Assembly (NCBI GenBank): GCA_030272155.1
Contig: CP126196.1
Span: 3,286,001 to 3,350,000 of the forward strand
Direction: 5' to 3'
Length of the DNA: 64,000 nt
From: Tetradesmus obliquus
Lineage: Eukaryota > Chlorophyta > Chlorophyceae > Sphaeropleales > Scenedesmaceae
This document shows, piece by piece, positions 2,343 through 55,427 of the stretch (within the stretch, counting starts at the first letter, position 1; every line of letters begins with the position of its first letter). A model generated the notes under the pieces. That model was not told the origin of the DNA, searched no databases, and worked only from the letters and a program-made list of their open reading frames with translations. The position numbers were made by a program, and so were the translations under genes.

Positions 2343-5300
2343 ATGCTGCAGGCTGAGGTGGAGCGGCTGCGGCGTGAGGTGGGCTCCCTCACCAAGCGCA
2401 GCGAAGCAGGCGATGACGAGCGCGCGACGCTGAAGCTGGAGCTGGCAGATGCACAGGTGTGCTGCGCTGCCAGCCATGTCGACCAGTGTGCAAATGCCCG
2501 TGCTTTGTGCATGTCACTTATGCACAGCATGCAAGAAGCGTCCAGCGATTGCCCTACCCTTTTGCCTGTGTACATAATGTGTGCAGCTGGCCAATATGTA
2601 CGGTTTGCTGAAGCTACCGTCTGTCTTTGTGCCCCTGCTGTCTTCCCTACTGCTTTGGCTGCTGCAACTGTTGGCAGGCAGCAGCTTCCGACGCTGCTGT
2701 GGAGGTGCGTGCTGCAAGTGCACGCGCGGAGCGGCTGGAGCAGGAGCTGGAGCTTGTGAGGTGCGGTTGTGTGCCATACGCGGCACCTCAGCTATTTGTT
2801 TGCGATGGCGACAGCGCATATGTTTTTCTGCAGAATCACACACACAATGCCTGGCCGCAGCAGTGCCTGACCGCAGTGTGTGTGCTGGTGAGCGGTTGGG
2901 CCAGCTGGCCAGAAGCTGCAGCTGCACCTGCACCATCACTGCGGCTCCACCAAGCTCGTTCATGGCCTTCACATGCTGTATGCTTGCAGGCAAGAGGCAG
3001 ACAGCCAGGCTGCCTCTCTGCGCAGCCAGGCAGCTGCTAGGGAGGAGCGGCTGGCAGCGCAGCACGCCAGCCGCATGGCAGCGCTGCAGAGCGAGCTGGA
3101 TGCGCGCGGCGCTGCTGCATGCGACTCTGACTCAGCGCTGTCAGCAGCTCGTGCTGAGATCACACGCCTCACCCAGCAGGTGCGCTGAGCAGATTGCGTG
3201 CATCTTGGATGTTTGCGCGCCTGCTGAAAAGTGGCATGCGTCAGGGCATGCGCACACGTGCTGAGCTGCAAGCATTGGGAACCAAGACTTGATGCAGGGT
3301 GGCTGTCTGCGGCAACTGGTTCGTGTGTGCAGGTTGACAGCTTGCGGCACATCGGCGATGCTGCTGGCTCTCAGCTGGCTACAGCGCAGAGCCGGGTGGA
3401 GCAGCTGCAGCAGCAGCTGCAGGCCAATGAGGAGCAGCTGAAAGAGACCAAGGTGTGTTGTGTTAAACGGTATCAGCTGGCAGGGTTTGCCGGCTGCCAG
3501 TGCATGTGACGAGCAGCGGCCGTGAAGTTTGCTAGTATGCCCTTTATGCACGAGTCTGCGGAGATGTGGTCTGTTTCTGATGCTGCTTGCTCCTGCTGCT
3601 GCGGCTGCGGCTGCAGGTGCATGTGTTGCAGCAGGAGGCTGCGCTGTCTGAGCTGCTGGCCAGCCAGAAGAGCAGCAGCAGCACCTGGACTGAGGAGCGC
3701 CAGCAGCTGGAGGAGTCTACCAGCAAGTGGCGGCAGAAGGCGGTGCAGCTGCAGCAGGAGGTGAGTTGCGCTATGGGAGATGGCAGTAGCATGTCCAAGC
3801 ACTGCACCCAGAGCCGGCAAGCTGTGGATACATCAGGCCAAGGCCTCCTTTGGATGATATGGCAGCTGCCTATGTCAGTTGCCCTCACTGAACTTGCGAA
3901 CAAAGCTGGTGAACTTTGAGGCATCTGTGGTGCTGCTGCTTCTGCTGCTGTACTTCTGCTGCAGCTTGAGTCCAAGTCTGACCAGGCCGTGAGCAGCTCC
4001 CAGGCTCATGCGCACGAGGTGGCCAAGCTGCAGGTGGCGCTGGACAACGCAGCAGCTGAGCTGGCGCTGGTCAGACGGCAGCTGGCTTCAGCTGAGGAGG
4101 AGCGCACGTCTGCAGCCAAGCGCAGCAGTGCGCTGCTGGTGCAGTGGGAGGAGCGGGACAGGGGCCAGAGCCAGGAGGTCACCACGCTCCGGTGAGCAGT
4201 GCTGTAAGCAGCTTTGCAGTAAACTCGCCCCAACACCCTCATCAAATGTGTTTGGCTTGTTGTGCCAGCCCGCGTCTGCAATGCTATTTTGTCACCAAAG
4301 GCAAACAAATGGTCTACACAGAGCTTCTTGCATTTGCCCATTGCAAGCCTTTGTGCATTGCTGCCTCTAACTGTTCAAACCCTGTGTGCATCCATGGTCC
4401 CTCACTCGACACCTTACATCATGCTGCACCGCACCGCAGGGCCCGCTTGGTGGACCTGCAGGAGGCGCACGACGCAGCACCTAGAGGAAGCCTTCCACTT
4501 ACATTTGCCAGTTGCTAGCCGGTGTGCATTGTGTCTTTAACCCTGCTGTGCATCCATACGCCCTCTCACTCCAAACTGCGTGCTGCACCCTTTGGGCCGC
4601 ACCGCAGGGCCCGCCTGGTGGACCTGCAGGAGGCGCACGACGCAGCGCGCTCAGAGGCGGAGGTGCACCGGCAGCAGCTACGCGCCACGCAGCAGGAGCT
4701 CGAAAGTGCCACGCTGGCGCTCGCAGACGAGCAGGCGCGGCTAGCTGCGCTGCGCGCTGAGCTGGGCGCGCTGGAGCGGGAGAAGGGCGCGGAGGTGGAC
4801 GCGCGGCTGCGCAGCGTGCAGGAGCTGTCTGCTGCACTGGCGGTGAGGACTTGGATTGGCGGCTTGCGAGTGTTATGCGACAGTGTGCGTGAGCTTCACA
4901 ATGAGATCTGGCGTGTGCGCGATGCTTGTGTGTGCATGTGGGAGGCTGATGCCAGCCGTTCACGCGTGGATGACTTTAAAATCTTGCTGGTACAGTACGC
5001 ACCTGACAATGGCCCTGTGCTTGTGCGCTGATGCTATGTTGTGTTGCTGCTGCTGCTGCCGCTGCCGTTGCTGCTGCCAGGCTGAGCAGCAGGCGCGGCT
5101 GGATGCGCAGCTGGAGCTGCACAGAGCCAAGAAGAAGCAGGCCACTGTGGAGTCGCAGCTGCAGGCGCAGCGGTGAGCTCAGGACGACGCTCGCAGGCAC
5201 CAGAGGATGCTAGGCCAAGCCGAACACCACATTAGATTGTGCCTTTCATGTCTGCCTCGACATCATAGCACCGTTCAAGCATTGACGCCAGCGGCCCTGC

Positions 5301-6111
5301 ATATGCCGGCTGTTGCTTGTTTTTCCTTGTGCTTATTACTTTAGTATGTTGCTGACCATGCCTGGTCAGCCACCAATCTCAGCTCACATAGCCTGGTCGT
5401 AACGGATTCCTGGGTGCTGCTGCTGCTGCTGCTGCTGCTGCGTTGTCATCCACCTGGCACAGGATCCAAACTCTGAGCCAGGTGCTTGATGCGAAGGCCA
5501 AGGCAGACGAGGCAGCCACCAACGCAGCAGCACTGGCGGCGGCCGAGCGCAAGGCAAAGCAGTACCGCGCAGACAGCAGCAGCATGCTCAGCGACTATGA
5601 GAGCTGGGTGCAGGGGCTGCTGGATAAACAGACAGCAGCAGGGGCAGCAGCTGGCAGGATTCCAGCTGGCAGAGATGGCCTGGGCCAGCGCTCGCCATCA
5701 CTGTCTGCGCGCAGCAGCGGCCTGCTTGCCAGCCCCCAGCCTGCCAGCAAGGCGATGAGCCCGCAGGCGTCGTTTGGCAGCAGGAGCGCTGCGCTGAGCC
5801 TTGCTGCAGCAGCAGCAGCGGCTGGCTCGCGTAGCCCCGGTGGGGGTGACTTGGAGAAGTATGACAGGATAGCAGCACTGCTGGAGGGCAGGGCGGGCGG
5901 CTCTGGCTCTGGCACTGCTGCTGCTGCTGGTGCAGCCAGCGCTAGCCTGAGCCGCTCGCTGTCGGGCAAGTCGATATCACTCACTGGCGGCAGCCTGTCT
6001 GCTGCAGCGTCGCCGCTAAAGGCAGGCAGCGGCAGTGGCGGCAGGCCTGGCAGCCTGGCTGCGGCAGCAAAAGGGTCACCCAGCACTCCCTCACGGGCCA
6101 GCTTTAGGTAG
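18..6111 (+). CDS. Coiled-coil protein with Ser/Ala/Gly-rich C-terminus, 5' end outside window
   Basis: Sixteen exons join in frame: 18-114, 376-441, 662-730, 995-1086, 1305-1442, 1651-1781, 2004-2128, 2352-2456, 2678-2760, 2990-3179, 3333-3452, 3617-3760, 3965-4191, 4608-4842, 5081-5172 and 5478-6111 (stop TAG), giving about 848 visible residues. The first visible exon encodes a conserved-looking stretch beginning YDPVNYLTRGG. Exons 2 to 15 are almost wholly heptad-rich coiled coil (Leu, Glu, Gln, Ala, Arg), for example LRREVGSLTKR and VEQLQQQLQANEEQL. The last exon ends in a low-complexity tail rich in Ser, Ala and Gly with many Ser-Pro sites. No catalytic motif is visible. A cytoskeletal or scaffold role is plausible for such architecture, but I do not recognise the family. 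The start of the gene lies left of position 1. The exon 3 donor (730) and the exon 16 acceptor (5477) are the least certain joins. Confidence 0.85.
4344..4655 (+). repeat. Tandem duplication spanning a 3' splice site
   Basis: About 140 bp is present twice, 168 bp apart. Each copy holds intron 3' sequence, the accgcag acceptor and the first 48 or so coding bases of the exon that truly starts at 4608; the decoy exon start is 4440. In the decoy the reading frame runs into TAG near 4518, so its use would truncate the protein. Confidence 0.85.
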
Positions 6112-6872: not shown

Positions 6873-9472
6873 ATGGGCGTCATGCAGACCAGGCGGGCCC
6901 GGGCAAGGAAGGATGCGATGCCAACAGCTGTCTCGACAGCAGCAGTTCTACATTTGGTCCTTCAATGCACTGCTGTAGATCACACCAGCATCAAAAAGCT
7001 GGCTCAGTGCTGCGTAGTGTCGAAGCAGTGGGCAGAGGCAATTACGCGGTTTGTAAACGACCAAGCTGCTGTTCTCGTGCCCGGTGCGGCTTATCAATCA
7101 TGTATCACTTTATACGGCCGTCACGAGCAGCAGGCAGCGCTGGAGTGGCTCCTGGCCAAGCAGGAGCAGCAGCTTGAGCATGGCACTCTGAGCCAGCTGG
7201 TGCGCATGCCTTGCATGCCTGCTGATGTCATCGAGGCGGTGCTAGACACCGGCGCACGTATGGATATGCAGCAGCTGGTGGCAGCAGGTGGGTTGAAGCC
7301 GGCGCAACAGATGGCAGCAATGCGGATGACACTTCTGCGTTTCAACACTCCACATTCACTGCACAGGGCACAACTGCCGTGTGTCTGCAGCAATCACACA
7401 CTCTTTGCTATTAGCTGGCTTGTAGCGCCTGAAAGGTGCACCATGTGCCTGCTGTGTTGCTCGATGCTGCTGCTGTTGGGTCTCCTGCAAGCGCAGCAAG
7501 GTGCCGCGTGCTGGGGCTGGAGGCGTGGGTGAAGGTCTGCAAGACGATGCGCGTCAAGTCGGGGCTTCCTGCAGTCGTGGAAAGCGTGTGCACTGCTGTT
7601 GCAGGGGTGAGCGTGTGCACTGCTGTTGCAGGGGTGAGCGTGTGCACTGCTGTTGCAGGGGTGAGCGTGTGCACTGCTGTTGCAGGGGTGAGCGTGTGCA
7701 CTGCTGTTGCAGGGGTGAGCGTGTGCACTGCTGTTGCAGGGGTGAGCGTGTGCACTGCTGTTGCAGGGGTGAGCGTGTGCACTGCTGTTGCAGGGGTGAG
7801 CGTGTGCACTGCTGTTGCAGGGGTAGGCAATGCAATTCTTCACCTCAAGGAGCAGTCACAGATGCTGCAGCGTCAGCCTCAGAAAGCAGCCACAGATGTT
7901 GCAGCAGCAGCAGCATTTTGACTGCATGAATCTCCGCAGGTAAGTGCATGTTCAGCCAAGCTCTGCAGCATTGCCCTTTGCGGCCATTAGCTCTGATCCT
8001 GTGTGTATGTATGTGCTTGCAGGACTGGCTGTCCTTCAGCAGCCGCCAGGTCACAGCAGCCAACGTGCAGGACCTGCTGCACATCGCAGTCAACAAAAGC
8101 GACACCACAGCCGCCACACAGCTCCTAACCTTCCTGCGGCTGCCCCGCAGCAACAAAGGCCATGCGGCGCTGCTGCAGCAGCTCACGCCGGCGCTGCTGC
8201 TGCACCTGCTGTGCACAGCAGTGGAGCGGCAGCACGTGTGTGTGGTGGAGCAGCTGCTGCGGCTGCCTGCGGTGCAGCAGCTGCAGCCTGCTGATGTGGC
8301 TGCGGTGATTCAGGCTGCGCTGACGCCAGGCCGCAGCATGGTGATGCTTACGGGTGAGCAGTTTGAAACTCGGGACATGCGTAACAGTTTCGCCGGCAGC
8401 AGCAGGTGTGCGTGCAGCGGTTCGGCTGTTGCAACAGCTGAACCTGCCTTTATCCTCGCACACAATCTCAGCGCAGGTCCTGAGCATGCCGTCGTGTTAT
8501 TGCCGATGCTCACACAAGGTCCTTGCTTACTTGTTTTTCACATGCCATCTGACAGCCGTTGCTTACTTTGCTCGCTGTGTGTGCCGCAGCCCTGTGCAAG
8601 CCGCCTCTGTCGCCGCTGCTGGACGCGGCCAACTGTGAGAACAGCATTGCTGCTGCAATGCTGGCCAACTCAGCCTCTGTTGCACACCACGGCGTGGCGC
8701 TGCTGTGCAGCTGTGCAGCAGCGAGGGCGCTGCAGCCAGCAGCGTTGGCGCGGCTGCTGGCTGCAGCACTGACAGCATACGGCGGCGATGCGCTGAAGGG
8801 CTACTGCAGCCATATGCTGGTGCTGCCGCTGCTTGGGCTGCCAGGTGTGGCGTTGTGCGGTGATGCATGTTTATGCCTTTGCAGTTGTGTCGTGTATGTC
8901 TGTCGTCTGGAGTGAGCCAGTAATCAGTTGACTTGCGAACAGCCACAGCCTAGGCCGGCTGGTGCAAAGAGCAGGTTGTGCTATCCACCTGCTTCACTTA
9001 CTTGGCTGTGCGTGTGCTGCTGCGCTGCCGTAGGTGCTCAGGCCTTGCCGGCGGCGTCTGTTGCGGCACTTCTGCGGCAGGCGCTGAGCTGCGTGTCGCA
9101 CCCCCTCAGTCGGCTAGAGTCCTTTCGCTTCCTTCTGTCGCTGCCGGCAGCAGGCAGCATGGACCAAGCGACGCTGGCTGGAGTGCTGCAGGCAACGCTG
9201 CAGGTGCGGGAGTGTGTATACTTGTATACACCTGGCGACAAACCTGAGACGTTTTTAGTGCTACATGACCAGAGCAGGTTCCCCTCGTCGTGTCCTAGGG
9301 GTCAGGGGTCAGACTCGGCTAATGCAGCGCACAGCTTGGAGCGGAGGAGAGTGAGGGGAGAATTGGGCAAGCTGCTGTAAGGACAAGAGCTGTCTGCAAG
9401 CGCAGCCCCAAATGTCTGCACACGCCAAGCACACAGCTCGTCTTCCCAGCACTTCACCACACCTGCTGCTGC

Positions 9473-9506
<34 letters not shown>

Positions 9507-14827: not shown

Positions 14828-14875
<48 letters not shown>

Positions 14876-25249: not shown

Positions 25250-25293
<44 letters not shown>

Positions 25294-32745: not shown

Positions 32746-34820
32746 AGCATCCAAGATCTACTACTTCAATGTCCAAGGTAAGTGATTTGGATGCTACACA
32801 CGCCGCTGACATGAATACTTTGTGCTGCATGGCATCTGGCCCTGTTGCAGGCAGCCGCACAGTGCATCACGTCGCATGAAGGACCACTTGTTGTTACGTT
32901 GAGCATGACAGATGTTTGGCGGCGGTGCATTTCGGGAACCTGTTATGTTTCACGCAGCAGGAGGCGGCAGCCAGCTAGTCAGCACCCAATGACATGTACA
33001 GGCTCACTTTAGCATGCAATGCATGCCTTCCACCTTCCCCTGTGCCTTCTGTCTCGGCAATTGTGCACACAACATCCTCAACAGTTGATGTTGATGTGCT
33101 ACATTGTGTTTGTTATTACTCTCTATCTCTTGCATGCTGCTGCCTGCCACCATCATGTGTGCGCAACAGGTCTTGGCCACAACATGATCTCCCTGATTGA
33201 AGACATCCACAGCGGCTCGGCACTAACCATGGCTAATAACGTCTTAATGCAGCGGCAGAAAGACTGTGAGTGGGGCAGCAGCATAGTTTAGGACTGCATG
33301 CACACACCAGCAGCAGCAGCAGCAACATTGACATGCTTGCCGCCTCAAGATGCGGGCTGCAGCTGGCCTGTTGAATAGCGAAGTACAGCAGGCGGCACAT
33401 CCAGGTTTCGGGATGGCATCCAATGTCACTTTGCAAAAATGATGGTGCGCTCGGCGGTGCTCCATCCTCTGTTCATCGAACTCAGGTAGCTCAAGCAGCT
33501 GTGAATGTCACCCCATGCGTCACATCAGTCTGAAGAAACTGTTGTCGCTTCATTGTGCCTTGATTCTTGTTGCCTGTTGCCCTGTCGGCTGTGCTGGGTT
33601 GCAGTCGCGCTGTACAACCCTGCCCTGTCCGTGCTCAACATCTCAGTGCAAGATGCCTGGATCAGCCAGTCCACCTCCAACACGCAACGGCGGCGGGCTG
33701 CCTCGCAGCGGCTGCTGGAGCATGGCGGCATGGATGAGGTGGTGGTGGGAGTGCAGGTGAGAGTGGGTGTTGCGTGTGCGACATCTGTTATGTCACAATT
33801 TCTGGCGACGGAACATAAGCGGAGTGGTGGCTGGTGGGGCATGGGGGTATGGATGAGGAGTTGGTGGGCGTGCAGGTGGGGCACAGCAGCAGCAGCAGCA
33901 GTAGCAGCAGCAGCAGTACCCAGCTTGCACTGCATCATGGCGGCATACATGAGGTGGTGGTGGGCATGCAGGTGAGGCGCAGAACAGCAGCAGCAGTGGC
34001 AGCTTGCACTGCATCATGACGGTGTGAGCACGGTGGTGGTTTGTGTGCAGGTGACGCATGGGTGTTGTGGGCTGTGGCGTGATCTGATTCGCTGGGGTAC
34101 AGCTAACCCCGAGGGGCAATCACTGAACCGCTGCTGTGGCTGCCATGCAGGTGTCACTTGGCCAGGGCTTTGTGGCTAAGACAGCAGAGGCAGTGCTGGA
34201 TGCTGCCATCATCACACCCTCAGCGATGAGCTATTTGATCACACTAGGCCAAGCCTTGGCGAGAGACAAGCTGGTGTCTGAGTTCTGCATCTCGCAGGCA
34301 AGCGTTTCGGATCACTATGCATTGCGCAAACCAAAATCACGCTGTCGCTGAGATGCGAACAGGATCAAGGTCAGCGTAGGGCACACCAGACATGCATACA
34401 CTCATGCGTCACACCGCAGCATCCATGCTGGGACCAAGCGGAGCAAACCCCCTGCCTGCTAATTAATGCTTGCTCCGCGTCATTGCCGGCACAGATTGTG
34501 CACAACAAAGTAACACCTGTTGTGGCTGGTGTTGTCTGCAGATGTCATTGGCTGTGAGTGACAGCACTGGCCGGCCCCTGGGGGCCTCTGCGGGCAGAGG
34601 TGAGGCACACTGTCTGCTTCTACTGCAACATATATATTATTATATTGTTAAATTATATTCACGGGCTGATATTTTGCTCTGTGTGTACACTCCAGAGTTC
34701 AGCACTCGCCTGGTTGCCTTGTATTCACAGAGCGCCTAGCAGAACTGTTTGTAGGCTGCACATACTGCAGCCGCACAGACGGCAGCTGACTCTCACCTGT
34801 GCTGGCCTGCTTCAGATCGC

Positions 34821-34865
<45 letters not shown>

Positions 34866-38749: not shown

Positions 38750-41509
38750 TGAATTATCTGTATCATCAGATGCTGTTCCTGAATCCGGAGCGATACGCAA
38801 GTCGCGCATGCCCCTGTTTGGGGGGAGACTGTAGGCGCTGCCACCATTGGGTGACACAGCACAATGTTGTGCTGGTATTGCAATGATTCAAATGCGTTGT
38901 TTGGTTTCGCCTGAGACCATGTGTGCTTGGGCCAACATCTGTGTGTGAGTATGCTACTTCTGCCTGCCAGCTTAAACGCGGCTGTTTGTGATTGGGGGTG
39001 TGCTGTTCTCCCTCCTCCGCAATGCTGTCAGCATTGCTGTTGTGGCTGTGTCTTTGCCTGTGCTTGCCACACAGGGTGGATTGTGTGCCGCATGCTGTGC
39101 ATGCAAAGGGAAGTGTTATCCTGCATATTTGGATGCAACAAAGTATGTGAAGACTGTGTTGATCAGCGCATGTTGGCTGCCAATGCTGAGCAACCTGCCC
39201 CGACCGGCACTGACGTGTAGTTGAGCTTCGTGAACGTCATCAAACCGCCCAACTGCTGTTGTGTCTGTGGCTTTGCCTGTGTCTGCCACACAGGGTTAGA
39301 TGTGTGCTGCATGCTGTGCATGCAAAGGACAGCAGTGCCATGCATCTTTGGGTGCATCCAGAAATGCAGCAAGATTGGCTGATTTCGAAACCTGGGTTGA
39401 GCGCCTGTTGGTTGCTGATGGCCTAGCACACAACTTGTCACGACTGACAGTTACCTTCAGTGCTGTGTTGCTTATGAGTGCCGCCCAACTGCTCAAAACA
39501 GGAGTGAGAGGCAGCAAGAGGCTGCAATGGCCCATTTAGATGGCATAGTATTGTAAATTGGGTGTTACAGCACTGTGCATGCGCCGTGCACGCATAAAAC
39601 TTTGCAGATACTCACTCTCACTACATGTGTACGCTGAGCGGCGCTACTCAGCGCCTCACGTTATGTGAAAGAATCATTTGGCATTTGGGCAGTTGGCATG
39701 TGGGCATGTGCATAGTGCAGGCCACAACCTGATCTTCCTAGCTGCCACTTGGCTTTGTCCGGGTGCATTGCTACACACACAGCGGCACTTGTAAGGATCT
39801 GGATGTTGGCACAATGGAGGCACAAGTGTGTCTGCCTTCCTTTCATTGTAGTTTCCTGTGATTTCAGAACACTGGTGGCCACAGGTTCCTCGTGGCAATT
39901 CAATGCGGTGGTCCTTTCCAGGGCGGACGGCGCCTCTTGTGTGGGCCTGTTGTGTTGTGAGGCTATGCAGCACACACATATGCACTGTTATGCTATGGAT
40001 GTATTGTTAATACAGCCGCACGTGCTCTCGCATGTTAACGTATTTATGGATCACTACTGTTAGTGTGTGGTGGGCGTCTGGCATGGTACTTGTGCCGTTA
40101 GTGGAAATGCATTGCTTAATGATGTACTTGCTGAGTCTAGTGCTTCAGAGACTGAGTACTCTGAGCTTGTTGAGGTCTTTGACGCTTAGTGTCTGTGTTT
40201 CTGTTTTGTGCTTTCTGGACCCCATGAGCCTTGTCTGGCTCCTTAGTGGGTGGGCTTGTGGCCCTACTATGGTAACTGGTAACTGGTAACTGGCATATGC
40301 CTGCCAACACACAATACTATGGGTTTCCTGCGCATCCTACGACGTAGCTGTCGCATGCTGCTGCTTGTGTGTGCAAGCGCCACAATGGATGGCCAGCCAG
40401 GGCTGCCCACAAGCATCGCCGCTGATGCTGTTGTCACTCTGGCGGCAGGGCAACAGTGTGCCAACCCCTCGAATATGAGTGCTCCTGTGTTGCATGCTTG
40501 GTTGTTCAAACACCGTGTTGCACGGTTTAGCATGAAGGCGCCTGCTGCTTTGATTAGACACGTTCATGTGGCAGCCTGGATATGTTGATACTTGGCGAGC
40601 CTGGCGGTGGTTGCTGCGCTGTCAGCTGCCTAGGTAATACATCTGATGAGGAGTCTTACTTAATAACAATGGTAACACTTGATTGTACAAGAACCTGCAT
40701 GTCGCTTGGGGGATCTGCATGCATGACTCATGACTGAGTCTATGAGCACGCACTGCGTGCATGATGTATGATAAGATTCTCGTGTCGCTTGCAGTGGCTA
40801 AGGTGGTGAGGGCAAGTCTTCACGGCGTGCAAAGTGTGATTGGCCATGGATACTGCCTGCATGTACATTGATGCATGTGTACGAAATTTCCCCTGCACAT
40901 AGACTCAGGGCACCAGGTCACAGCAAGGTGTGGACCTACTAAAACACTGCTACTTCTAACAAACAACTGCACTGCTACACGAAGACACATTCTGTTGAAT
41001 AGTCCCTTCGTGCTCCACACACTTTTCTTTGGCCTTGAGGGCTGCCAGGATGTCAGGGGAAGGCAGACAAAAGATGAGCCAAAAGATAAGCCAAAATATC
41101 AGCCTCGTGTTGCTGCAACACGTGTGGTGTTGGCTCAGAAATCGCAGATGAGCACATGCATGCTCACATAACTGTTGAGCATCCAAGATTCAAAACCCCA
41201 TACGGTGCATGAAATGCTGCATGAAATGCGCTGCTGCAAGTCGACATGGGCGTGCTGCTGCTGTCAGCGGTGTACACCAAACACCATGAGTGTTGCTTGC
41301 ACAGCATCATATGAATCATTCAGCCTTGGTATGACAAACCCATACTTCTTCGTTTTGAATGTCCTGCTCTTGCTGAGTCCCCACACAAATGATTACTTGG
41401 GAGATGCTCCGCTGCTGCCTCCACACATCAATATAAGTACTTGTGCTCGACACACCCAGGTTCCAACGATGCAATGCTGGGATGGTCAGTGCACCATATG
41501 GTGCATGCA
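38750..41509. other. 2.8 kb intergenic region without a recognised gene
   Basis: This separates the secreted protein gene (+) and the PLOD-like gene (-), which converge here. A roughly 100-bp segment is duplicated 219 bp apart (39032-39130 and 39249-39350), each with tgccacacag|GGT, an acceptor-like end. A short ggtaact triplication sits at about 40270. Open frames here are short and of unbiased composition. Confidence 0.5.
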
Positions 41510-45098: not shown

Positions 45099-45245
45099 CA
45101 GTAAATGTCAGCAAGTACAGCATATCACGCCGCCCGGAGCTGCACCCACCAAACAGCTCAGTGGACATCCGCCCAGCAGACGCTGAGATTCCTGCTCAGT
45201 AGATGTCCGCAAGCACAGCGTCACACGGCGCCTGGAACTGCAACC
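45099..45245 (-). repeat. Two extra copies of the GST last-exon 3' end, downstream of the gene
   Basis: The final 50 or so bases of the GST coding sequence, including the stop (real copy 45286-45335), recur at about 45197 and 45099 (spacing 90 and 98 bp). They are degenerate but keep the TGA position. Confidence 0.85.
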
Positions 45246-45285
45246 ACCTAGCAGCTCAGCAGACATCCGCTCAGCAGATCCTTGA

Positions 45286-45541
45286 TCAGTAGATGTCAGC
45301 AAGCACAGCATCACAAGCTGCCCGGAACTGCACCGTGGCCGCAGCGCTCATGTCGCGCGGCGCAGACGCGCGGTTGCGAAAGAACGCAAGCGCAGCAGCG
45401 CCAACAGCAGCTGCCTCTGGCTCTGTCACGCGCGGGCCTGCGCTGCCTGTGAGCAGCAGCGTGGTGAGTCTGTCAAGGTGGAAGGTGACTGCGTTGCGCA
45501 CTGCGGGGCTGACCTGGGACTTGTTGCCGTTGATGGACACT

Positions 45542-45574
<33 letters not shown>

Positions 45575-45652
45575 TTGTGAGCCTGTTGAGGTGGAAGGTG
45601 ACTGCGTTGCGCACTGCAGGGCTGACCTGGGACTTGTTGCCGTTGATGGACA

Positions 45653-45688
<36 letters not shown>

Positions 45689-47044
45689 CAGAGGGGTGCA
45701 GCCGTCAGTCTTAGGACAGTGACTGGCAACATCTGGCTGAACAGGGTCACATAATATTGTGGAGGGTTGACACTGCGCAGCAGCAGCAGCAGCAGCAGCG
45801 GCAGCAGCACAGGCCGTAGGTACACCGGTCAACGTAGACAAACGCAGCACAGTGCGCAGAATATGAATGAAGCTGACTGGAGGGAGCTGGACGCCAAGGA
45901 CAGTGCATCGCCTGGTGCATGCTGCAGCTGCACAGTACGCGCACCTCATGTCATGCCAGAGCACAACAACCACCAATGCATTGCCAACCAGAGCGTCGGC
46001 TACCCAACAAGCATCACCCGTGCACCTGTCATCACAATGTGTGTGGCGCTGCAAAGTTTGTGCACAATGTCCTGTTTGCAGCTCACCGTATGTGGTACCA
46101 CAGCGCAACAACTACCAATGCACGGCCAAACAGTGCATTGACTAATTGACTGCCCACGGGACTGCCCAACAAGCATCACCCGTGCACCTGTCATCACATT
46201 GTGTGTAGCGCGGCACAACCTCTGCACAATGTTCTGTCTGCAGCTCACCGTAAGTTGTGTCGCGCGCAACAACCACCAATGCACGGCACACAGAGCGCTG
46301 GATAGAAACCAAGCATCGATTGTGCATTCATCATCAGAATGTGTGTCACATCATTTGCGGCTCACCGTATGTCGTGCCGGAGCGCCTGCCGCGCCGTGCG
46401 ATGCCGCTCTTCTGCAAGATGTCGTCCACGATGGCCTCCTTGTTTGCCTTGATCTTGGCTGCTGCCTCAGCAGATGCAGCCGCGGCAGCGCTGCCCTGCT
46501 CTGGTGGCGTGAACACAAGAGCCTCCACACCATCTGCATACGACTGCGTCAGCGCCTGCGTGCACGCGATGCAGAGCTGCTCTGCTGCTGCCGGGCTCAG
46601 CTCTCCCAACTGCCCACAGTCCTGGTGCCTGCAGGGATGTTGTGTTTGTTTACAGGGAGACGGGCAGACACACGCTCCGACAGCACTGCATTGCCGTCGC
46701 TGTTTGCAGGTTTTGATGGATACTTGCAGGACGGCTAATTCAATGTTAGCAGGGAGGAAGCAGACACATTGTCACATGGCACAGCGGAGAGGCCAGACAG
46801 TGCGACCCTGTGCTGCAGCGTGCTTGAACACGTAACCACATCCAGCACAAAATCACCCCACCTGTTGCGCAGGAACGCCGCCGCCACGCTGCCAAATGCA
46901 GCAGCAATGGATGTGTCTGGCTTGGGGCCCGCTGACCCAAGCAGCAGCGCCTTCATCACGCGCACCACCTGCTTCTCAACGGCCTCACGCACTGGCAGCG
47001 CCACGCGAGGCTTGTGGCCGTTGACGCTGAGCGTGGTGGCGCCT

Positions 47045-47110
<66 letters not shown>

Positions 47111-47339
47111 GCAGCAGAAGAAGAAGAGTCAGCAGCAGCAACAGCAGCGTCGGTGACATCAGTGGCAGCGCCACGCGCGGCATGTGGCCATTGACGCTGA
47201 GCGTGGTGGCACCTGCCGCAGCAGCAGCAGCAGCAGCGGCAGCAGCAGCAGAAGAGTCAGCAGCAGCAGCAGCGTCGGTGACATCAGTGGCAGCGCCACG
47301 CGCGGCATGTGGCCGTTGACGCTGAGCGTGGTGGTGCCT

Positions 47340-47395
<56 letters not shown>

Positions 47396-48850
47396 AGAAG
47401 AAGAATCAACAGCAGCGGCGGTGACTTCAGCAGCAGCGCCACGCGAGGCTTGTGGCCGTTGACGCTGAGTGTGGTGGCACCTGCAGCAGCAGCAGCATCA
47501 GCAGCAACAGGCTAGCTGCTTGAGACAACGACACTCTTTGCTGGCTGCAGCTCTTACTGGATGGCGTGCGTGCAGCACTGGCTACTGCTGTAACAGCATA
47601 TACACACGACAGCAGGAAGACATGCAAGCGCCAGCAGCAGCAGCAGCAGCAGCAGTTTTAGCTGCAGCAATATTAGCAGCAGCAGCTCACCGTATGGGCT
47701 GGCCTGGTAGCGTGTCACGCCGCTCTTGGCCAGGATGTCACGCACAACATCACCTGCACTTGCCTGGAGCAAGAGACAGCAGCAGCATGGCAGCAGCAGC
47801 ACAACAACAGCAGCAGCAGCAGCAGCAGGATGAATGGAGCGGCAGCAAAGCGAGCAGTTGACGCACCAGGACAGCTCACACAGCAGCATGAATACAGCTA
47901 GCTCTCCAAGCAGCCACGCGCTAGCTCCGATGCTGCCTTGCAGCATGCCAAAGCTGCTGGAAAGCACGGCAAAGTCGATATTGGATTCCACCATGTGTAG
48001 AATGCAGCTACTTGTGCGGCACAAAGCAAGCAATGCGATTTGCTGGTGAGTGGCTGTGATGAGAGCACACATAGCACATGTCAAGCGCAAACACCACCCT
48101 AAAAAACAACGAACCAAACCCTCACGCACCTGCAGCGCATCATATGCCTCATTCTTAGCCGCCTGCAGCTCCTTCTCACTCGCCGCAGCAGCCGCCACCT
48201 CCGCCTGCGTCTTTGCAAACGCAGCAGCAGCAGCCGCAGCAGCTGCTGCAGCGCTCGTGCGTGTTGCTGCTGCTGCAGCGCCCGGGGTGAGGCCCATCAT
48301 GCGTTGGAACAGCAGCTGCAGGGTCTGGTCATCACTGCTGACCTTTTGGTAGGCTGGGCGCTCTGCCAGGGCTGCGAACCAGGCTGCTGTGTTGGGGTAG
48401 GCGGGGTTGCTGCGGATGTTGAAGTTGCGGAACTTGGGCAGGCCTGCAGCAGCGGCAGCAGCAGTAGGGCATGAGGACAGTTGAGGCACACGACACTGCT
48501 CACTTGCACACTGCAAACTCTCTGTCAACAGCCACATACATGTTAGTGACCGACATCATCTGCTTCAAATCAAACCGATAGGTATGGCGAGCATGCTGTC
48601 CAGCATGCTGCACCTGCAGACCCGGCACTGCAGCTGATGCACCTGCAGACCCGGCACTGCAGCTGATGCACAATAAAGCATAATACTGATGTAACACAGT
48701 GACCGGCAACATGACATCCTGCACCCACCTGCACCAATGCGCTCCAGGGAGCTGATCATCATGATGTCCAGCATGCTGAACTCCGCCCCCAGCAGGTACG
48801 GACCCTCGTGGCGTGACAGCGCACTGCCCTCAAACCACTCCAGGGACTGC

Positions 48851-48885
<35 letters not shown>

Positions 48886-50826
48886 TCAAGACCACGTAAC
48901 TCAGTGTGCAGTTCAAAAGCAGCAGCAGCAGCAGGTACGGCCCCTTGTGGCGGGACAAGGCACTGCCCTAAAACCACTCCAGGGACTGCGCAGCAGCAGC
49001 AGCAGCAGCAGTAGCAGCAGCAGCAGTCAAACACCATGCAACTCAGTGTGCAAATCAACAGCAGCAGCAGCAGCAGCAGCAGTAGCAGGTACGGCCCCTC
49101 ATGGCGCGACAGCGCACTGCCCTCAAACCACTCCAGGGCTGCGCAGCAGCAGCAGCAGATGTCAACCACGCCTTTTATTGCTGATGCTTTGACGGCAGTA
49201 GCACTCTATGGCAAGCTGTGCCCCGGCAGGTGCCGCAGAGCCTTAGTGACGAGGTCGTCCTGGTCCATCATAGCTATCAGGCTGCGCACACCACGACGAT
49301 TGCTACTGTCAACCGCACACACCAATACAACCTAGCATTTTATTAACCAGGAGCCATGTAAGTGGCTCTGGCTAAGCGGCGGCTGGCAATACAGCAAGCA
49401 ACAAACTATCAAACTATCCAACAACATAACAGTATGTGATGTGTCAAGCCCCACCTTGACAAAGGCTGCCTCCAGCTCAGCCATGTCAGGCACCGGCTGG
49501 CAATACAGGCAAACAAGTAGCTATATATTCTGTCAAGAAACACACAAGTCAACGCCCTACCTTGACGAAGGCTGCCTCCAGCTCAGCCATGTCGGGTGGC
49601 GGCTGGCAATACAGCAAGCAAGCAACAACGTTTTACAGTATCCCACAGCCAAACAGATAAAACTTACAGATCACGATATGAAACTTACAAAGTTCAAATC
49701 ACAATCAAAGCCCCACCTTGACGAAGGCTGCCTCCAGCTCAGCCATGTCGGGTGGCGGCTGGTCAAAGGCGCTGCCAGCGCTGCGCCCGATCATGCGGCC
49801 GCCTGTCATGAATGCGTAGCCAGTCTTGTCGATGCCGCAGGCCTCAAGCTCAACCAGGAACTCCAACGCCTGAGGCAGCACAATGCAGCAAGGTGCAGCA
49901 AGGCGCAGCAGGCAAGGAGGAAAACAGTCAGCAGAGTCTAGGGTGCTGTGAGGGTGCTGCCGGCTGGTCAATGCCGCAGGCCTCCAGCTCAACCAGGAAC
50001 TCCAGCGCCTGGGGATGCAACAAGGCAGTGCCGAGTCTACTCAGTAACAGCAGATGCAGCAGGATCAAGAGAGTAGCAGCGGTCCAGTGGCTGACGCCCC
50101 CAGCTCAACCAGAAGGGTCCGACGCCTGAGGACGCAGCAAGCAAGTGCAGAGGAACAGCAAGGCACAGGTTCAAGAGAGCAACGGCCGCCTGTCATGAAT
50201 GCGTAGCCAGTCTTGTCGATGCCGCAGGCCTCCAGCTCCACCAGGAACTCCAGTGCCTGACGGCACAGCAAAAACACCGAGCAGCGAGGAAACAAGAGAG
50301 GCAGCCAGCAGGCTCAGCAGCAGGGCAGCAGCCAGCAGCACATGGAGCTCCAGCTCAACCAGGATCTCCAGCGCCTGGCATGCAAAAAACGTGGAGAATA
50401 ACAGCAAGGCACAGCGTGTTGAGCAGCTGATGAACAGCAAACATGCGATCGCCTGTCATGGACGCGTAGCCAGTTTTGTCGATGCCGCAGGCGTCCAGCT
50501 CACCCAGGAACTCCAGCGCCTGAAAAAGCAAAATCAAACAGGCCAAGTGCGGATGAATCAGCCTGACGCTGCTGCTGGTGGTGCTGAGCATATGTCTGGT
50601 GCTGCTGGCGCGGTCAGTGCAGAGCCTGCTGCTGCCGCTGCTGCTGCCGCCGCTGCCCACATACCACCTGCTCTGCTGCCGCTGCTAGCCCAGCTCCTGC
50701 TGCTGCCGCTGCTGTTACTGCCAGCACAACTCCTGCTACTGCCGCCGTTGTTCCTGCTGGCACCTGACCTGCCGCGGCCGCTGCCGCCGCTGCTGCTGCT
50801 CCTGCAACTGTCAGCACAACCCCAGC

Positions 50827-50858
<32 letters not shown>

Positions 50859-53309
50859 TTGCTGGCGCGCACCTTCTGCTTCTCCTCCTCGTCTGTTGGC
50901 AGCAGCGGGTTGGCGTGTGGGAAGCGCTCCTCCAGTGCCAGCAGGATGTCCTTGGACTCCCACACCACAGCGCCATCCTCGCTGAAGGACTGCGGCAACG
51001 TAAGCGGAAAAACCTTGTGGGGATTATAAGCCAGAACAGCAACAGAGCAACAAGTGTCCTTGGACTCCCACACCACAGCGCCATCCTCGCTGAAGGACCG
51101 CGGCATAGCAGCGGCAAGCCAAGTACGTAAAGCGCCACAGCTGCGTGCTGTGAGCTGCCTGCTGCTGGTACATGCAACGCAGCTGCTGCGTGCCTTGATG
51201 ATCAGCACTCCACATGTTCTTCATTGCAGGTCTACAAGCTCACCACTGTGGGCACCAGGCTGGTGGGCCAGCTCCCTGTACCCCTGCTGTGTATGTAACA
51301 CTTCTGGCTGCTGTGCATGTCACGCAGCTGCTTCTGTTGCTTATGCTGCAGCCAAGCTTGCCATCAGATGATAAAGCTCACCACTGCGGGCACTGCACCA
51401 CTCTGTGTGTCTGCCGCTGCTGGCTGCCGCATCTGCTGCTGGTACAGGCAATGCAGCTGCGACTTGTCGTGTGAAGGCCCATATGACTCACCACTGCGGG
51501 CACCAGGCTGGTGGGCACACGCGGCTGCTGCCACATGTATGCCGCTGCTGGCTGTTGCTGTAGATGAGGCAGCTGCCATTTCTGCCCTGCTGATCACAAA
51601 TCACATGCTCAATTATGTAAAGGAACCCGCAAGCTCACCAATGCAGGCACCAGGCTGGTGGGCACCAGCTCCTTGTACCACTATTGTGTGCCACTGCTGC
51701 CTGCTTTCATTTCAAATTACTGTCAATTCATATCTAAGCAAAGCTCACCACTGTGGGCACCAGGCTGGTGGGCACCAGCTCCTTGTACCTTATTGTGTGC
51801 CACTGCTGCCTGCTGTCATTTCAAAAAACTGTCATTTTAATTATAAAAGTAAAGCTCACCACTGCGGGCACCAGTCTGGTGGGCACCAGCTCCTTGTACC
51901 ACATTGTGTGCCACTGCTGTCTGCTGTCATTTCAGATAACTGTCATTTCAATCATAAGCAAAGCTTACCACTGCGGGCACCAGGCTGGTGGGCACCAGCT
52001 CCTTGTACCACTCGGGCTTGTTGTACAGCTCGATGAGCACGCAGTCGTACGGCACAGCCTTCTCCTCCAGCGCCAGCCACACCTGATTGACACAGGGCAA
52101 GGCAGCAGGCATGTCAAGACCACCAACTGATTGCAATCAGTGACATGGTAGGACACCGCCTTCTCCTGCGCCAGCCACACCTGATGACAAAAGGAGGAAG
52201 GAACAGACATGCAAAAGCAGGCACCGGCATGTCAATGCAGCTGCATGTCCATTGCAACAGTTGAGGCAGGGCACCGCCTTCTCCTCCAGCGCCAGCCACA
52301 CCTGCAGAGCCCCATGTCACAGCAAACGTATCAGGGACACCCGCATGGTTTGTCACTGCTGCGACGCTGCGGCTAGCTCTCGTTATCTTTCCCCTTGCGA
52401 TGGCTGCACCTGTTAGGTTGCCAGCATGTGCATGTGCTTGTGAGCATGTGCAGCTAGGCTGGTGACACTACACCTAGACTGATGTCATTGCTGCAAGCAT
52501 ACACATGCGGTACTAGCCAGGGCGTTGCCGTGACTGCACGGCTTGCTGCAGCAGGCAAACATCCCTGCTCACCCGCTCGCAGAAGGGGCACCATGCGTTG
52601 GTGTCCCTCACCAGCACCACTGGCTTGTTGCTGCGCTTGAGCGAGTCTGCGGCAATGATATGCAGCAGAGCAACAGCAACAGCAGCGCAGTGCAGCAGCT
52701 TGAGTTGCTGCTGCGTGCGGGCAAGCTGTTGATATGCTGAAGCTGCAGTGCAAGTTTTGCCCGACTATGTTGTGTCACTCATGATTGTCAGCTGATACCA
52801 GTGCTCCCTGGGCGAGACTAGACAGCCACCTGAGAGCACCCTGCTGGTGCTGCTGCTGCTGTTGCCGCGCCTGCACAGACCAGGCTGCTGCTGCCAATGC
52901 TGCTATCGATTAATTGCACTGCTTGCATCGTTCTATGCATCCACTACCGCCAATGGGGGCCTTGCATGCGGATTCCAGCTGCAGAAAACGTGATTCTTGC
53001 TGCCAAACGCCCACCAGGTCGAGTAGGCAGGGTTGATGTGGGTGCCGCAGCTGGCACCTGCCCTGGCCTCAGCTGATAGCCATCGAGAACGCTCTCAGAA
53101 GGCCATGAGATGCGATCGGTGTCTTCTGTGTTGGGCAGAACAACGTCCCAGGTGATTTCCCCGTCCTCGTCAATGGACAGGGACTCAAGCACACCAACGC
53201 GAGGAGCAAGTGGTTTCAAAAGCTTTGGGCGTGCAGATGGTGCTGGCACCACCAATGGCTTGGCGAAACGAGAGCAGATCCTGGTGTTGGCTGCGCGCAT
53301 TGCACTCAT
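45286..53309 (-). CDS. Glutathione S-transferase-fold protein, likely plastid-targeted, with duplicated C-terminal module
   Basis: Eleven minus-strand exons join in frame: 53309-53015, 52646-52573, 52082-51969, 50989-50873, 49869-49717, 48846-48729, 48443-48130, 47763-47691, 47042-46862, 46628-46366 and 45539-45286, giving about 651 residues. The N-terminus (MSAMRAANTRICSRFAKP) is basic and hydroxylated like an organelle transit peptide. The thioredoxin-fold GST_N domain (about residues 100-200) has VVLVRDTNAWCPFCERVW, with a CPFC active-site pair, then LVPAV and VVWESKDILLALEERFP. GST_C (about 201-345) has LEWFEGSALSRHEGPYLLG and FSMLDIMMISSLERIG. After an Ala-rich segment come two related modules: DILAKSG with SVNGHKPRV (about 399-480) and DILQKSG with SINGNKSQV (about 545-651). 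Both are split by a phase 1 intron at the same place. Substrate is unknown; a Cys-type active site suggests thiol transfer or reductase chemistry. Six introns carry copied splice junctions. Confidence 0.88.
45573..45655 (-). repeat. Copy of exon 11 5' end plus acceptor (GST gene)
   Basis: The first 80 or so bases of exon 11 (SINGNKSQVSPAVRNAVTFH) and its acceptor are repeated once in the intron, 114 bp from the real acceptor, separated by a CAG run. Confidence 0.92.
45943..46260 (-). repeat. Three copies of exon 10 3' end plus donor (GST gene)
   Basis: The real exon end is at 46366. Copies with ctcacc at 46244 and 46082 keep GTGAGC on the minus strand; the most distal copy near 45943 reads atgagg and has lost the donor. 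Each is followed by similar intron sequence (caccaatgca on the plus strand). Confidence 0.82.
47163..47483 (-). repeat. Three copies of exon 9 5' end plus acceptor (GST gene)
   Basis: Segments coding for ATTLSVNGHKPRVAL with their acceptor recur at about 47163-47217, 47288-47341 and 47424-47483. The real exon starts at 47042. Linkers are CAG runs of different length. Confidence 0.93.
48930..49141 (-). repeat. Two copies of exon 6 5' end plus acceptor (GST gene)
   Basis: Segments coding for LEWFEGSALSRHEGPYLL recur at about 48930-48988 and 49086-49139; the real exon starts at 48846. Both copies keep the AG of the acceptor. The first copy has a changed frame (ccctaaaac). Confidence 0.92.
49454..49615 (-). 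repeat. Two copies of exon 5 3' end plus donor (GST gene)
   Basis: The segment MAELEAAFVK plus GT donor, really ending at 49717, recurs near 49557 and 49456, with shared flanking ggctggcaatacag. All three keep the donor. Confidence 0.9.
49970..50522 (-). repeat. Five copies of exon 5 5' end plus acceptor (GST gene)
   Basis: The start of exon 5 (ALEFLVELEACG; real start 49869) recurs with exon-start equivalents near 50010, 50128, 50258, 50374 and 50519. Lengths differ: the copies near 50258 and 50519 reach through GIDKTGYAFMTG, the one near 50128 is short and drifted. All five keep the AG acceptor. Confidence 0.9.
51054..51112 (-). repeat. Copy of exon 4 5' end with a destroyed acceptor (GST gene)
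   Basis: The segment SFSEDGAVVWESKD recurs about 121 bp upstream of the real exon start at 50989. Here the acceptor reads ccgcgg instead of ccgcag, one of the two copies found with a lost splice dinucleotide. Confidence 0.88.
51228..51898 (-). repeat. Six copies of exon 3 3' end plus donor (GST gene)
   Basis: The end of exon 3 (KELVPTSLVPAV plus donor; real end 51969) recurs with donors near 51232, 51378, 51487, 51636, 51745 and 51854. The last three intervals are 109, 109 and 111 bp. The copies use gtgagc or gtgagt while the true exon uses gtaagc. The copy near 51378 is shortened. Confidence 0.92.
52140..52304 (-). repeat. Two copies of exon 3 5' end plus acceptor (GST gene)
   Basis: The start of exon 3 (VWLALEEKAVP; real start 52082) recurs with starts at 52180 and 52301. 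Both keep AG. The copy at 52180 carries a small deletion in the coding part. Confidence 0.88.
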
Positions 53310-54348
53310 CGCGTCCGCAAAGTGCTGTGCAGCAACGGGGAAGTCGGTTCTGACACGGAGAACGCCAGCTAGTAAAGGGCATGTAGAGGTCGTCGCGACC
53401 CTTCTTGTTCAGTTTAGGGTTTCATGGGAAACAGGGGATGCTTTGGTCAGATCGTAACCTTATACAAACATAAAGCAAATCAGCTGGTGGACAATGCGAT
53501 TGCTGCAGCCAGTCCAAGGCAGCCAGCAATAGACAACTCAAAGTGCCAGGTGTACCTGCCTCGAGGGGTTTGACCCGCACGCCTGAGATAAGAGCTAGCA
53601 CGGTAACCTGCTTAAGAGCTTGTATAGAGCTTCAATGATGATCAGTAGCTCTGTTGTTGCCACTGCAGCATCCAACATGCCAGTGACTGACGTACCATCA
53701 TGTCATGACTGCTAGCACCCACCATCCATCACATGCCAGCGGCGCACTGGACCGTGGTATACACCGACAAGAAACAAGGGACCAGCAGTTGACACCACAC
53801 ACAACAACAACCAAAGGTTTGAAAAACACTCCTCATGCACGGGTCACTGCATCACAGAGCAACGCTCGCATGCATACTTCAACTGCTCAGGTCATGAAGC
53901 CGCTACGCATGCTTGCATACAGCACATGGATCACGAAACGTGCAGCAAACAGGACACCCGCTCAATACATCATTCAGAATATGCCACGGCGGACATTGTC
54001 ACGAATTATACGCTAGTGACCGTCACCAGCTGCGCTGCAGCACATTGTTTTGAGACAGCCGCACTGCCCTCCCTGCCAATGCAAACATAATACACAAGCA
54101 CTGCCTGGACAGCAGTAGCAACAGCCAGATCACACAACACCAGCTTCATCCCACCGCTGCCACTTTCACAAACAGCATCGCTGGCGCATCGTCAGCACCT
54201 TCTGCTAGCTGTCTGCCGCAGCTGCTGCCGCTGCATCGCCAGCTCCACCAAACACCCGATGCGCCTCGGCCAGGAATCACAAAACACCAGCTTCATTGCG
54301 CTGCTGCCGCACAATATGCGGCATCGCTGGCGCCGTCAGCACCTTCTG
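53310..54348. other. Intergenic region with a copied 3' end of the kinase gene
   Basis: Promoter side of the GST gene and 3' flank of the choline kinase gene. About 54134-54285 repeats the stop-codon end and 3' flank of the kinase gene (real copy 54287-54425), 144 bp apart, including the tctgctagctgtctgccgca block around the stop. The rest shows no gene. Confidence 0.7.
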
Positions 54349-55427
54349 CTAGCTGTCTGCCGCAGCCGCTGCTGCTGCTGCGCCAGCCCCACCAAACACC
54401 CGACGCGCCTCAGCCAGGAACTCTTCCTTCCTGCGCCTGAACTCCCCAAGCCTCACCCTGCTGAACTGCATGTAGTCAAAGTCAATGGGGCTGTTGCAGG
54501 CTTGAATAATCGCCCACACACCCCAGTAGATGTGGGCCGCCAGTGCCCACACATTGGCCTCCGCTGAAAGCCTATCCAGGACTTCTGGAACGACCGGCGG
54601 CGGCTCCGTTGCTGCTGCTGCTGCTGCTGCCGGGTCAAGGGTTGTGCCCGCTGCTGCTGCTGTTGCTGCTGCTACCTCCTGCTGCTCCTGCGCCAGGTAG
54701 TGCCTGAAGAAGAGCTCTTGCTGCTGCTTGCTGGGGTACCTGCGGGTTTTCAAGTGATATTGGCACGAAGGTGCAGCCTCATCTGATGTGCTTGATGCTG
54801 CAGAGTGACCAAGACGGGTGTGGGCTGCGTGCAAGGTGGCATGCAAGTAGAGCAAACCATGCATGCATGGCGAATGCAACATGGTAGTGTGGCAGCCTGG
54901 GGCACTGGAGTGGTTGAACTACAAGTTTGCATGCTGCTGTGAGTAAGTCGTCCCTTGCTACCTCATTCACGGCGACAAGGACGTACGAAACCATATTTTG
55001 TTCTTTAAAACCGTACATAATTGCAGCTGGCTGATGCAACTGCTGCTCACCGAGTGTAGTCTCCCTCAAAGCCTGCATACTCCGTGAAATGGTTACCCAC
55101 ATCAAAGCCCCTGCATGGCGCAACGCAGCAAGCTCCCTCAACTGAACATTGAGCTCTCATGCTATACATTGATCGGCACAGCAGCGCAGTACAACCCAAG
55201 GGTCACACTGCAAAGACAGCATGCAGCGAGTGTCTGCATCAGCAGCAAGTCAAGACTTGCAGTGTCTAGAGCAGCAGCAGCAGCAGGGCTCATCACCCAC
55301 CTGAAGGTGTAGCCGCCATACTCATAGTCGATGAAGATGAGGGGGCCATCCAGGTCTGGCACTGAGGGGTCAAAGCCCGGCTGTTGCAGGATGAGGATGT
55401 TGCCGGACAGCAGGTCGCCTGCACGAG

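Follow-up and report, generated by a model that had tools for sequence, protein, structure and literature searches.

Tandem duplications laid across splice junctions in introns of the green alga Tetradesmus obliquus

Background

How does an intron come to hold several copies of the end of its own neighbouring exon? The question is raised by a 64,000-nt stretch of the Tetradesmus obliquus genome (contig C6, accession CP126196.1, positions 3286001-3350000; hereafter the window), in which the introns of a gene with a GST domain, and of other predicted genes, carry short direct repeats of an exon end together with its splice site. Long introns are usually attributed to transposons. The data presented here suggest that introns lengthen by short duplications laid across splice junctions. 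We consider it probable that short tandem duplications straddling the junctions recur, are absorbed into the introns and drift there, lengthening the introns inward.

We analysed the window together with 30 sampled 10-kb stretches (designated by L-numbers) of the genome, which comprises 104.7 Mb in 17 contigs. Gene models, containing 324 introns, were predicted ab initio by our own simple hidden Markov model gene finder, for which the window and 29 of the 30 stretches served as training data. The window is 57% GC and rich in CAG, with the splice signals GTGAG and TGCAG, features in keeping with chlorophycean green algae. The satellite stretch L016 was excluded from gene prediction and from all counts based on predicted genes. 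The satellite stretch L004 was excluded from the analyses of unit size, alignment ends, copy-unique changes, compartment rates and spacer homology, L026 from most comparisons of exon parts with spacers because its pair is a genome repeat, and the satellite at window 27.0-30.6 kb from the junction counts.

Junction copies in the genome sample

A scan for tandem similarity at lags of 45 to 400 detected 65 pairs in the window, counting those of the satellite, and one or more in 26 of the 30 sampled stretches; codon-block shuffles of three sampled stretches contained none. Exon ends repeated in tandem along with the splice site, as first noted in the window, are far more frequent there than chance would give. 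Their supposed confinement to four genes was not borne out. Across the sample, 61 of the 288 introns of at least 100 bp carry copies of their own exon end, 39 on the donor side and 31 on the acceptor side. Such copies occur in 9/135 introns below 300 bp and in 52/153 above; where an intron of at least 300 bp is flanked by a coding-scoring exon, their frequency is 14/40 for donors and 12/46 for acceptors. Junction copies are present in 25 predicted genes, ten of which were run against Pfam, seven with a domain. Array junctions lie inside the best domain stretch in five of these seven (an AI-2E transporter, an E1 dehydrogenase, an EF-hand protein, an FMN oxidoreductase and a mannosyltransferase), and the GST gene is the sixth such case.

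The anchoring of the copies was profiled in the 138 of 324 introns with a length of at least 300 bp and 200-bp flanks, by comparing 24-base segments (20/24 match) with sequence lying 60-200 bp deeper in the intron. On the donor side, exon segments with an intron copy amount to 11-18% close to the junction (15/134 at position -40, 19/134 at -30, 22/136 at -20, 25/137 at -10) and to 0-2% from -50 to -150 (3/132 at -50, 2/131 at -60, 1/130 at -80). Intronic segments match in 2% of cases (2/127 at +30, 2/128 at +40). The acceptor profile is a near mirror image (16/133 at +10, 16/132 at +30, 2/133 at +70). With two segments from each of the 138 introns as queries, 58/276 matched in direct and 0/276 in inverted orientation on the donor side, and 39/276 and 0/276, respectively, on the acceptor side; segments from deep within exons matched for 7/276. 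Donor exon ends compared with the introns of other genes yielded 0/407 matches. In the window alone, the signal of the automatic profile is clearer for acceptors (5/28 introns at +10) than for donors, where it is weak (2/28 at -10). Judged from the predicted models of the genome sample, the junction-copy phenomenon is real and genome-wide.

The duplicated unit

The copies are mainly tandem duplications straddling the junction, the whole unit being repeated head to tail in direct orientation. This follows from the spacers between the real site and its copy, which are usually homologous themselves. With 191 array-free intron edges as the null, 47 of 62 arrays contain one or more unit pairs with homologous spacers (p<0.05), and in 10 arrays p exceeds 0.2 for every pair. 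A separate spacer test gave p<0.05 in 32 of 58 cases and p>0.2 in 18. The initial annotation had pictured the amplification of a window confined to the junction, an idea that finds no support here, since the unit usually includes the intronic spacer, which decays and is then easily overlooked.

Unit sizes were taken from the shortest lag on each junction side (60 cases), kept when not exceeding 200 bp outside L004 and L026 (47 cases). Besides the splice site, the unit contains roughly 48 bp of exonic and 70 bp of intronic sequence. Its exonic part measures 16-85 bp (median 48) in the 26 donor cases and 23-102 bp (median 49) in the 21 acceptor cases; the spacer that separates real site and copy has a length of 41-135 bp (median 72) on the donor side and of 46-129 bp (median 68) on the acceptor side. 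As to a possible copying of whole exons, the exonic part has a median of 48-49 bp and a maximum of 85-102 bp. The lags are evenly spread modulo 3 (25/27/28). The sharp edge of the copies near the junction is partly an illusion, because selection acts on one of the two lineages of the exon half and so keeps it recognisable.

Alternatively, some 50 terminal exon bases with the splice signal might be inserted at a distance by a templated or RNA-derived step, with unrelated sequence in between. Some copies have this appearance, ending exactly at the exon edge or just past the donor consensus, with 95-100% identity in the exon part and no spacer homology (for example L010:591-645 and window 51055-51105). 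Homologous spacers in three quarters of the arrays are not what such a step predicts, nor is the clustering of the shortest lags, which are at most 200 bp in 47 of 58 junction cases outside L004 and not spread along the intron. We regard displaced copying as improbable.

At L012:790-1485, seven listed stretches (two of which overlap one copy region) of a repeat of about 70-90 bp ending in CTGCAG are separated by similar but diverged spacers; no gene is called there, and the repeats could be acceptor-side copies or whole mini-exons. Peptides recur within the predicted proteins of L005, L006, L009, L010 and L015 (e.g. ALDLISSWTQDDRDYLRN in L005), apparently through a misreading of junction copies as exons by the gene finder. 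Automatic annotations of the T. obliquus genome may likewise hold false exons made from junction copies.

Fate of the copies

When the spacers are homologous, exon part and spacer have diverged to a similar extent. Mismatch is 0.150 in the exon part and 0.133 in the spacer for 26 copy-copy pairs, and 0.119 and 0.131 for 54 exon-copy pairs; by another criterion the values are 0.138 and 0.120 (24 copy-copy pairs) and 0.088 and 0.143 (57 exon-copy pairs). Exon parts are too similar (p<0.01) in just 4 of 80 spacer-homologous pairs, and gene conversion as a general process is rejected. On average the copies differ from the exon by about 12%, which argues against a collapse of the assembly.

Splice dinucleotides are intact in most copies (GT in 44/56, AG in 37/44). 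At fixed lag, identity is about 0.90 at exon positions, 0.84 and 0.80 at the two bases of the donor GT, and 0.91 and 0.86 at those of the acceptor AG. A special explanation for the retained GT and AG finds no support; as they survive about as well as the neighbouring bases, no selection is needed to account for them.

The copies might nevertheless be functional, as backup or decoy splice sites or as alternative exon ends held by selection. Apart from the mostly intact GT and AG, the excess of synonymous differences could be cited for this: 231 of 457 exon-copy differences and 89 of 207 copy-unique changes are synonymous, against a random expectation of about 29-30% (29% for the latter). We do not read this excess as function, because exon changes between successive duplications can produce it as well. 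Stop codons arose in 5 of the 207 copy-unique changes. Purifying selection on the copies is left unsupported by the survival of GT and AG, by the flat distribution of lags modulo 3 and by the equal divergence of exon part and homologous spacer, and a function seems to us most improbable. The copies mostly drift neutrally.

Preference for splice junctions

Segments of 24 bases with a copy 60-200 bp away make up 213/2260 (9.4%) of exon sequence within 60 bp of an intron, 82/3992 (2.1%) of exon interiors, 164/6790 (2.4%) of intergenic DNA (71/2146 near, 93/4644 far) and 140/8752 (1.6%) of array-free introns (52/3111 and 88/5641 in two subsets), the last class excluding arrays by definition; as the segments overlap and are clustered, these figures are rates and not independent events. 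The figure for introns as a whole is 617/11360, array introns contributing 477 of these hits (170/862 and 307/1746). Exon ends are about 4-6 times richer in nearby copies than intergenic DNA, exon interiors and array-free introns. The preference for junctions over random positions, proposed at the outset for the window, therefore survives in this sample. The further proposal that selection tolerates duplication only at junctions fails when taken alone, since duplications should be tolerated no less well in intergenic DNA and intron interiors, which nonetheless carry fewer of them.

The bias could lie in retention: duplications would arise everywhere, the exon half would be kept readable by selection and at some loci by gene conversion, and intronic and intergenic duplicates would dissolve. 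Exon-copy pairs indeed have one slow lineage by construction, and the four overly similar pairs mentioned above fit conversion at single loci. The equal divergence of exon part and spacer in spacer-homologous copy-copy pairs argues that such conversion is not general. In simulations combining uniform placement, neutral decay and a constrained exon, matches at -60/-50 reach 0.41-0.74 of the peak, whereas 0.09/0.14 is observed; the observed mean over -70 to -50 is 0.10 of the peak (bootstrap interval 0-0.25). On the intron side, the observed mean is 0.14 (0.03-0.29) over +20 to +40, where the simulations give 0.27-0.74, and 0.20 (0.07-0.38) over +50 to +80, where they give about 0.26-0.79. Overlap is limited here to the sets of the oldest age, in which the uniform models approach the observed profile. 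Imposing a minimum spacer on the simulation made the exon-side fit better and the intron-side fit worse. Alignments end within -12 to +14 of the donor in 29 of 55 cases, compared with 25-34% under uniform placement. Uniform duplication with decay, with or without a minimum spacer, is excluded by the exon-side profile in every set tried; the intron side alone does not exclude it at the oldest ages. The closest fit was obtained with junction-centred units at ages of 0.1-0.2 per site.

We tentatively favour a bias in the formation of duplications at junctions over retention alone, which we judge rather unlikely. If duplications form preferentially at junctions, they reflect a mutational process tied to transcription or splicing; under retention alone, the arrays would still be a quantitative example of exon constraint preserving duplicated edges. 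A stronger version of the first view, in which duplication steered to junctions by transcription or splicing continually amplifies junction-centred windows of about 120 bp and is a main route of intron lengthening in this lineage, is possible but falls short of being probable; its candidate triggers include nicks that occur at exon-intron R-loops, or composition steps. Array donors have a higher GC skew (39 versus 241 donors; also 11 versus 20, p=0.03), acceptors show no difference (p=0.62), and the exon-intron GC step is larger at array junctions on both sides (p=0.007 and 0.011), all in tests of eight features per side on small numbers, in which false introns among the controls would give the same result. 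GC skew or R-loop proneness was set aside as an explanation, being no more than a hint.

A probable route of intron growth

The 61 array introns have a median length of 518 bp, which becomes 276 bp when the array spans are subtracted; the 227 array-free introns have a median of 279 bp (p=0.27). Since subtraction of the arrays restores an ordinary intron length, junction duplication looks like a route of intron growth. No preference of the arrays for long introns is seen after the subtraction. Array spans comprise 15,469 of 151,915 intron bases, so that about a tenth of the sampled intron sequence consists of arrays of the introns' own junctions.

In the mechanism that we propose, tandem duplications with a lag of about 85-180 bp would straddle an existing splice junction again and again. 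The outermost donor and the outermost acceptor would stay in use, so that the extra exon end with its splice site falls within the intron, is spliced out with it and then drifts, mostly neutrally. Repeated duplication of the same region would build the arrays, and the intron would grow from its junctions inward. Exon definition may hide the copies from the spliceosome, and the floor of 41-46 bp in spacer length may mean that every real site requires intronic context of its own. The duplications may form more often at junctions, possibly from paired nicks or staggered breaks at transcribed exon-intron boundaries that would be closed by fill-in end joining. Small tandem duplications from staggered breaks or paired nicks are reportedly treated further by Schiml in 2016. 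That small duplications arise from break repair is described in the available text of PMC8355091. For the minority of copies with no detectable spacer homology, a further step would have to be added, be it non-tandem copying, large indels in the intron or subsequent gene conversion by the exon. As for the choice between duplicated sites, PMC9225289 describes minigenes in which two identical strong 5' splice sites were combined with long flanking introns and only the upstream site was used; for 3' sites, exon definition reduced the upstream preference but did not reverse it.

A number of observations weigh against growth by neutral tandem duplication. The main result against a purely neutral tandem history is the gap between exon part and spacer in unfiltered pairs, which the retention account would expect. 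Over all intronic copy-copy pairs, identity is 0.86 in the exon part and 0.615 in the spacer (gapped; unrelated sequences give 0.405), and the exon part is the more identical in 50 of 55 pairs, spacer homology not being required; this comparison is biased in that similarity selection was applied to the exon parts and none to the spacers. Among 38 exon-copy pairs with an exon-part identity of at least 0.92, spacer identity is below 0.70 in 21; a neutral simulation with 0.05 substitutions per lineage gives mean spacer identities of 0.81-0.87. Gaps number 119 in the spacers and 8 in the exon parts of 57 exon-copy pairs, an excess partly owed to the gap-free detection of copies. Of 40 pairs with at least 34/36 identical exon bases, nine, from seven loci, have spacers at p>0.2. 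These loci include L010 intron 233-700, L030 introns 673-2253 and 3481-3837, and GST intron 2. L030 intron 673-2253, again in line with retention, holds five copies with 0-2 differences in 47-53 exon-end bases, plus one degenerate copy. Its spacers range from alignable to unrelated and are of two types in mixed order; the second type was detected at a single further site genome-wide, 536 bp downstream. This and similar loci may be subject to large indels or to conversion from the exon.

The timing and the place of the duplications raise further difficulties. The best-fitting decay ages of 0.1-0.2 per site exceed the apparent age of many copies. Young full-length duplications occur in all compartments, as retention predicts, seven of their places lying at junctions, five in introns (two of these exon-derived) and five in intergenic DNA; those crossing a junction account for 7 of 17 places (7 of 15 minus the two exon-derived intron places), against about 24% of the opportunity, too few to prove a formation bias. 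The weaker effect at 3' sites in the minigenes as reported in PMC9225289 leaves the acceptor-side copies less well explained. Array introns are no longer than others after subtraction, and 23 of 61 would fall below 250 bp, so that intron length lends no support to exon definition by long introns. In two of the nine introns with both kinds of copies, an acceptor copy lies upstream of a donor copy, a possible pseudo-exon order. Finally, the exon edges rest on ab initio predictions without RNA support, and outside the Pfam-supported genes the predictor may favour exon edges at coding-like repeats.

Relation to known systems

A literature search outside subscription papers found no report of genome-wide junction-centred duplications. 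As far as the sources could be consulted, small break-repair duplications and one boundary-crossing case in potato are known already, and no precedent was found for the genome-wide junction bias. The nearest precedent, described in PMC4974935 (Ma, Lan and Niu 2016), is a tandem duplication in the potato RdRp gene that spans the border between intron and exon and whose unit carries the branch site, the polypyrimidine tract, the 3' splice site and the start of the exon. The units described here cross the boundary in the same way, with the exon part and, in most arrays of the predicted gene models, the intron part copied. The potato duplication, as presented there, concerns one gene and made a new intron, whereas here dozens of introns are involved, on the donor side too, and the copies appear to be absorbed.

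Intron gain by tandem duplication of an exon segment containing AGGT (Rogers 1989; Hellsten 2011, as cited in the consulted parts of PMC3443670 and PMC4974935), with Drosophila cases of gain by duplication treated in PMC2891723, resembles our case, in the parts consulted, in that duplication and splicing leave the mRNA unchanged. The segment duplicated here differs in already holding a junction and part of an intron, and no new intron position is evident. The AGGT model was set aside, the copies lying inside an intron and mostly having their own GT or AG. The break-repair duplications of PMC8355091, in its accessible text, share the short head-to-tail stretch and offer a plausible molecular route; the breaks are placed there by nucleases, and the bias to splice junctions is the unexplained part in our case.

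Introners, as outlined in the available text of PMC7789003 and PMC9860276, are likewise a recurrent genome-wide gain of intron sequence. They are alike across genes, whereas the spacers here have no relatives outside their own locus in the sample, with two exceptions: a search of the window and the 30 stretches (E-value up to 1e-3) gave 22 matches, 21 from one CAG-repeat spacer and one weak. An introner, or a transposon with a long target-site duplication, was rejected on the basis of this sample. Tandem exon duplication, including mutually exclusive exons, likewise places coding copies side by side within one gene. The copies described here appear to differ in comprising one exon edge and one splice site, with about 50 bp of exon.

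The GST gene and other features of the window

The GST-domain part of the gene lies at 48280..52635 on the minus strand, and its spliced protein matches Pfam GST_N_2 (1.5e-18) and GST_C_2 (1.3e-8). Its exons, also matched by protein search, are the source of the copies in introns 1 to 4. Together with the predicted models, the window yields 27 copies in 8 introns, in place of the roughly 37 copies in 14 introns counted initially; the figure is that of the 28 listed minus a 22-base match in GST intron 5 that stops short of the junction, and CAG-rich matches were skipped uncounted. Two splice-site losses had been claimed, an acceptor loss placed near 51112 and a putative donor loss near 45943. 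The former was found at about 51098-51100 (CAG to CGG) and is the one loss among the 27 copies counted, the other 26 keeping GT or AG. The claim of three introns with both kinds of copies agrees with the count, in which introns 2, 4 and 45501-46365 have both.

GST intron 1 (52083..52572, like the introns that follow on the minus strand) has two acceptor-side copies, at 52148-52185 and 52270-52304, which agree with the real acceptor and exon start at 35/38 and 34/35 aligned bases and both retain AG. Intron 2 (50990..51968) has six donor-side copies, at 51236-51285, 51374-51393, 51487-51534, 51631-51682, 51741-51789 and 51852-51902, GT being intact in 6/6, and one acceptor-side copy at 51043-51105 with GG in place of AG. 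Tandem Repeats Finder (TRF) reports an array of period 111 at 51631-52011 in this region. The five acceptor-side copies of intron 3 (49870..50872), at 49959-50014, 50073-50131, 50197-50265, 50348-50377 and 50464-50523, all keep AG, and a protein search of the genome detected exon fragments inside this intron at 50179-50259 and 50439-50522. Intron 4 (48847..49716) has donor-side copies at 49447-49503 and 49554-49609 and acceptor-side copies at 48929-48993 and 49084-49146, with GT or AG intact in 4/4.

Further downstream in the same predicted gene, the predicted intron 47043..47690 has acceptor-side copies at 47160-47220, 47285-47345 and 47433-47488 (AG in 3/3), with CAG repeats as spacers, and the predicted intron 45501..46365 has an acceptor-side copy at 45565-45621 and a donor-side copy at 46081-46106, with GT/AG in both. 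On the plus strand, the predicted intron 4192..4607 contains an acceptor-side copy at 4432-4487 (lag 168, 54/56 identical, AG intact), and the predicted intron 33757..34165 contains donor-side copies at 33829-33878, 33930-33976 and 34009-34054 (GT in 3/3).

CAG/CTG trinucleotide tracts are common in the window and the sampled stretches, and form the spacers of some arrays, such as those of 47043-47690 and 48847-49716. Tandem repeats at window 24961-25281, 37001-37295, 39035-39356 and 54129-54420, where exon edges are putative, stand outside the junction-copy count. A 112-bp satellite occupies window 27256-30305 in 27 copies of 98% identity, followed by 21-bp repeats up to 31724; its period is near the lag of the junction duplications. 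Among the sampled stretches, L016 carries satellites of 277-279 bp and 340-345 bp, and L004 starts with a satellite of about 180-190 bp. At L026:5991-6269, a 93-bp sequence occurs twice around a 93-bp spacer, each with about 40 scored matches genome-wide; it was rejected as a junction copy on account of these matches, which mark it as a dispersed or satellite repeat. Two minisatellites with 100% matching copies are also present in the window, one of 27 bp x 9 at 7583-7824 in a predicted exon of a plus-strand gene and one of 23 bp x 8.1 at 20418-20603 in a predicted intron of a minus-strand gene.

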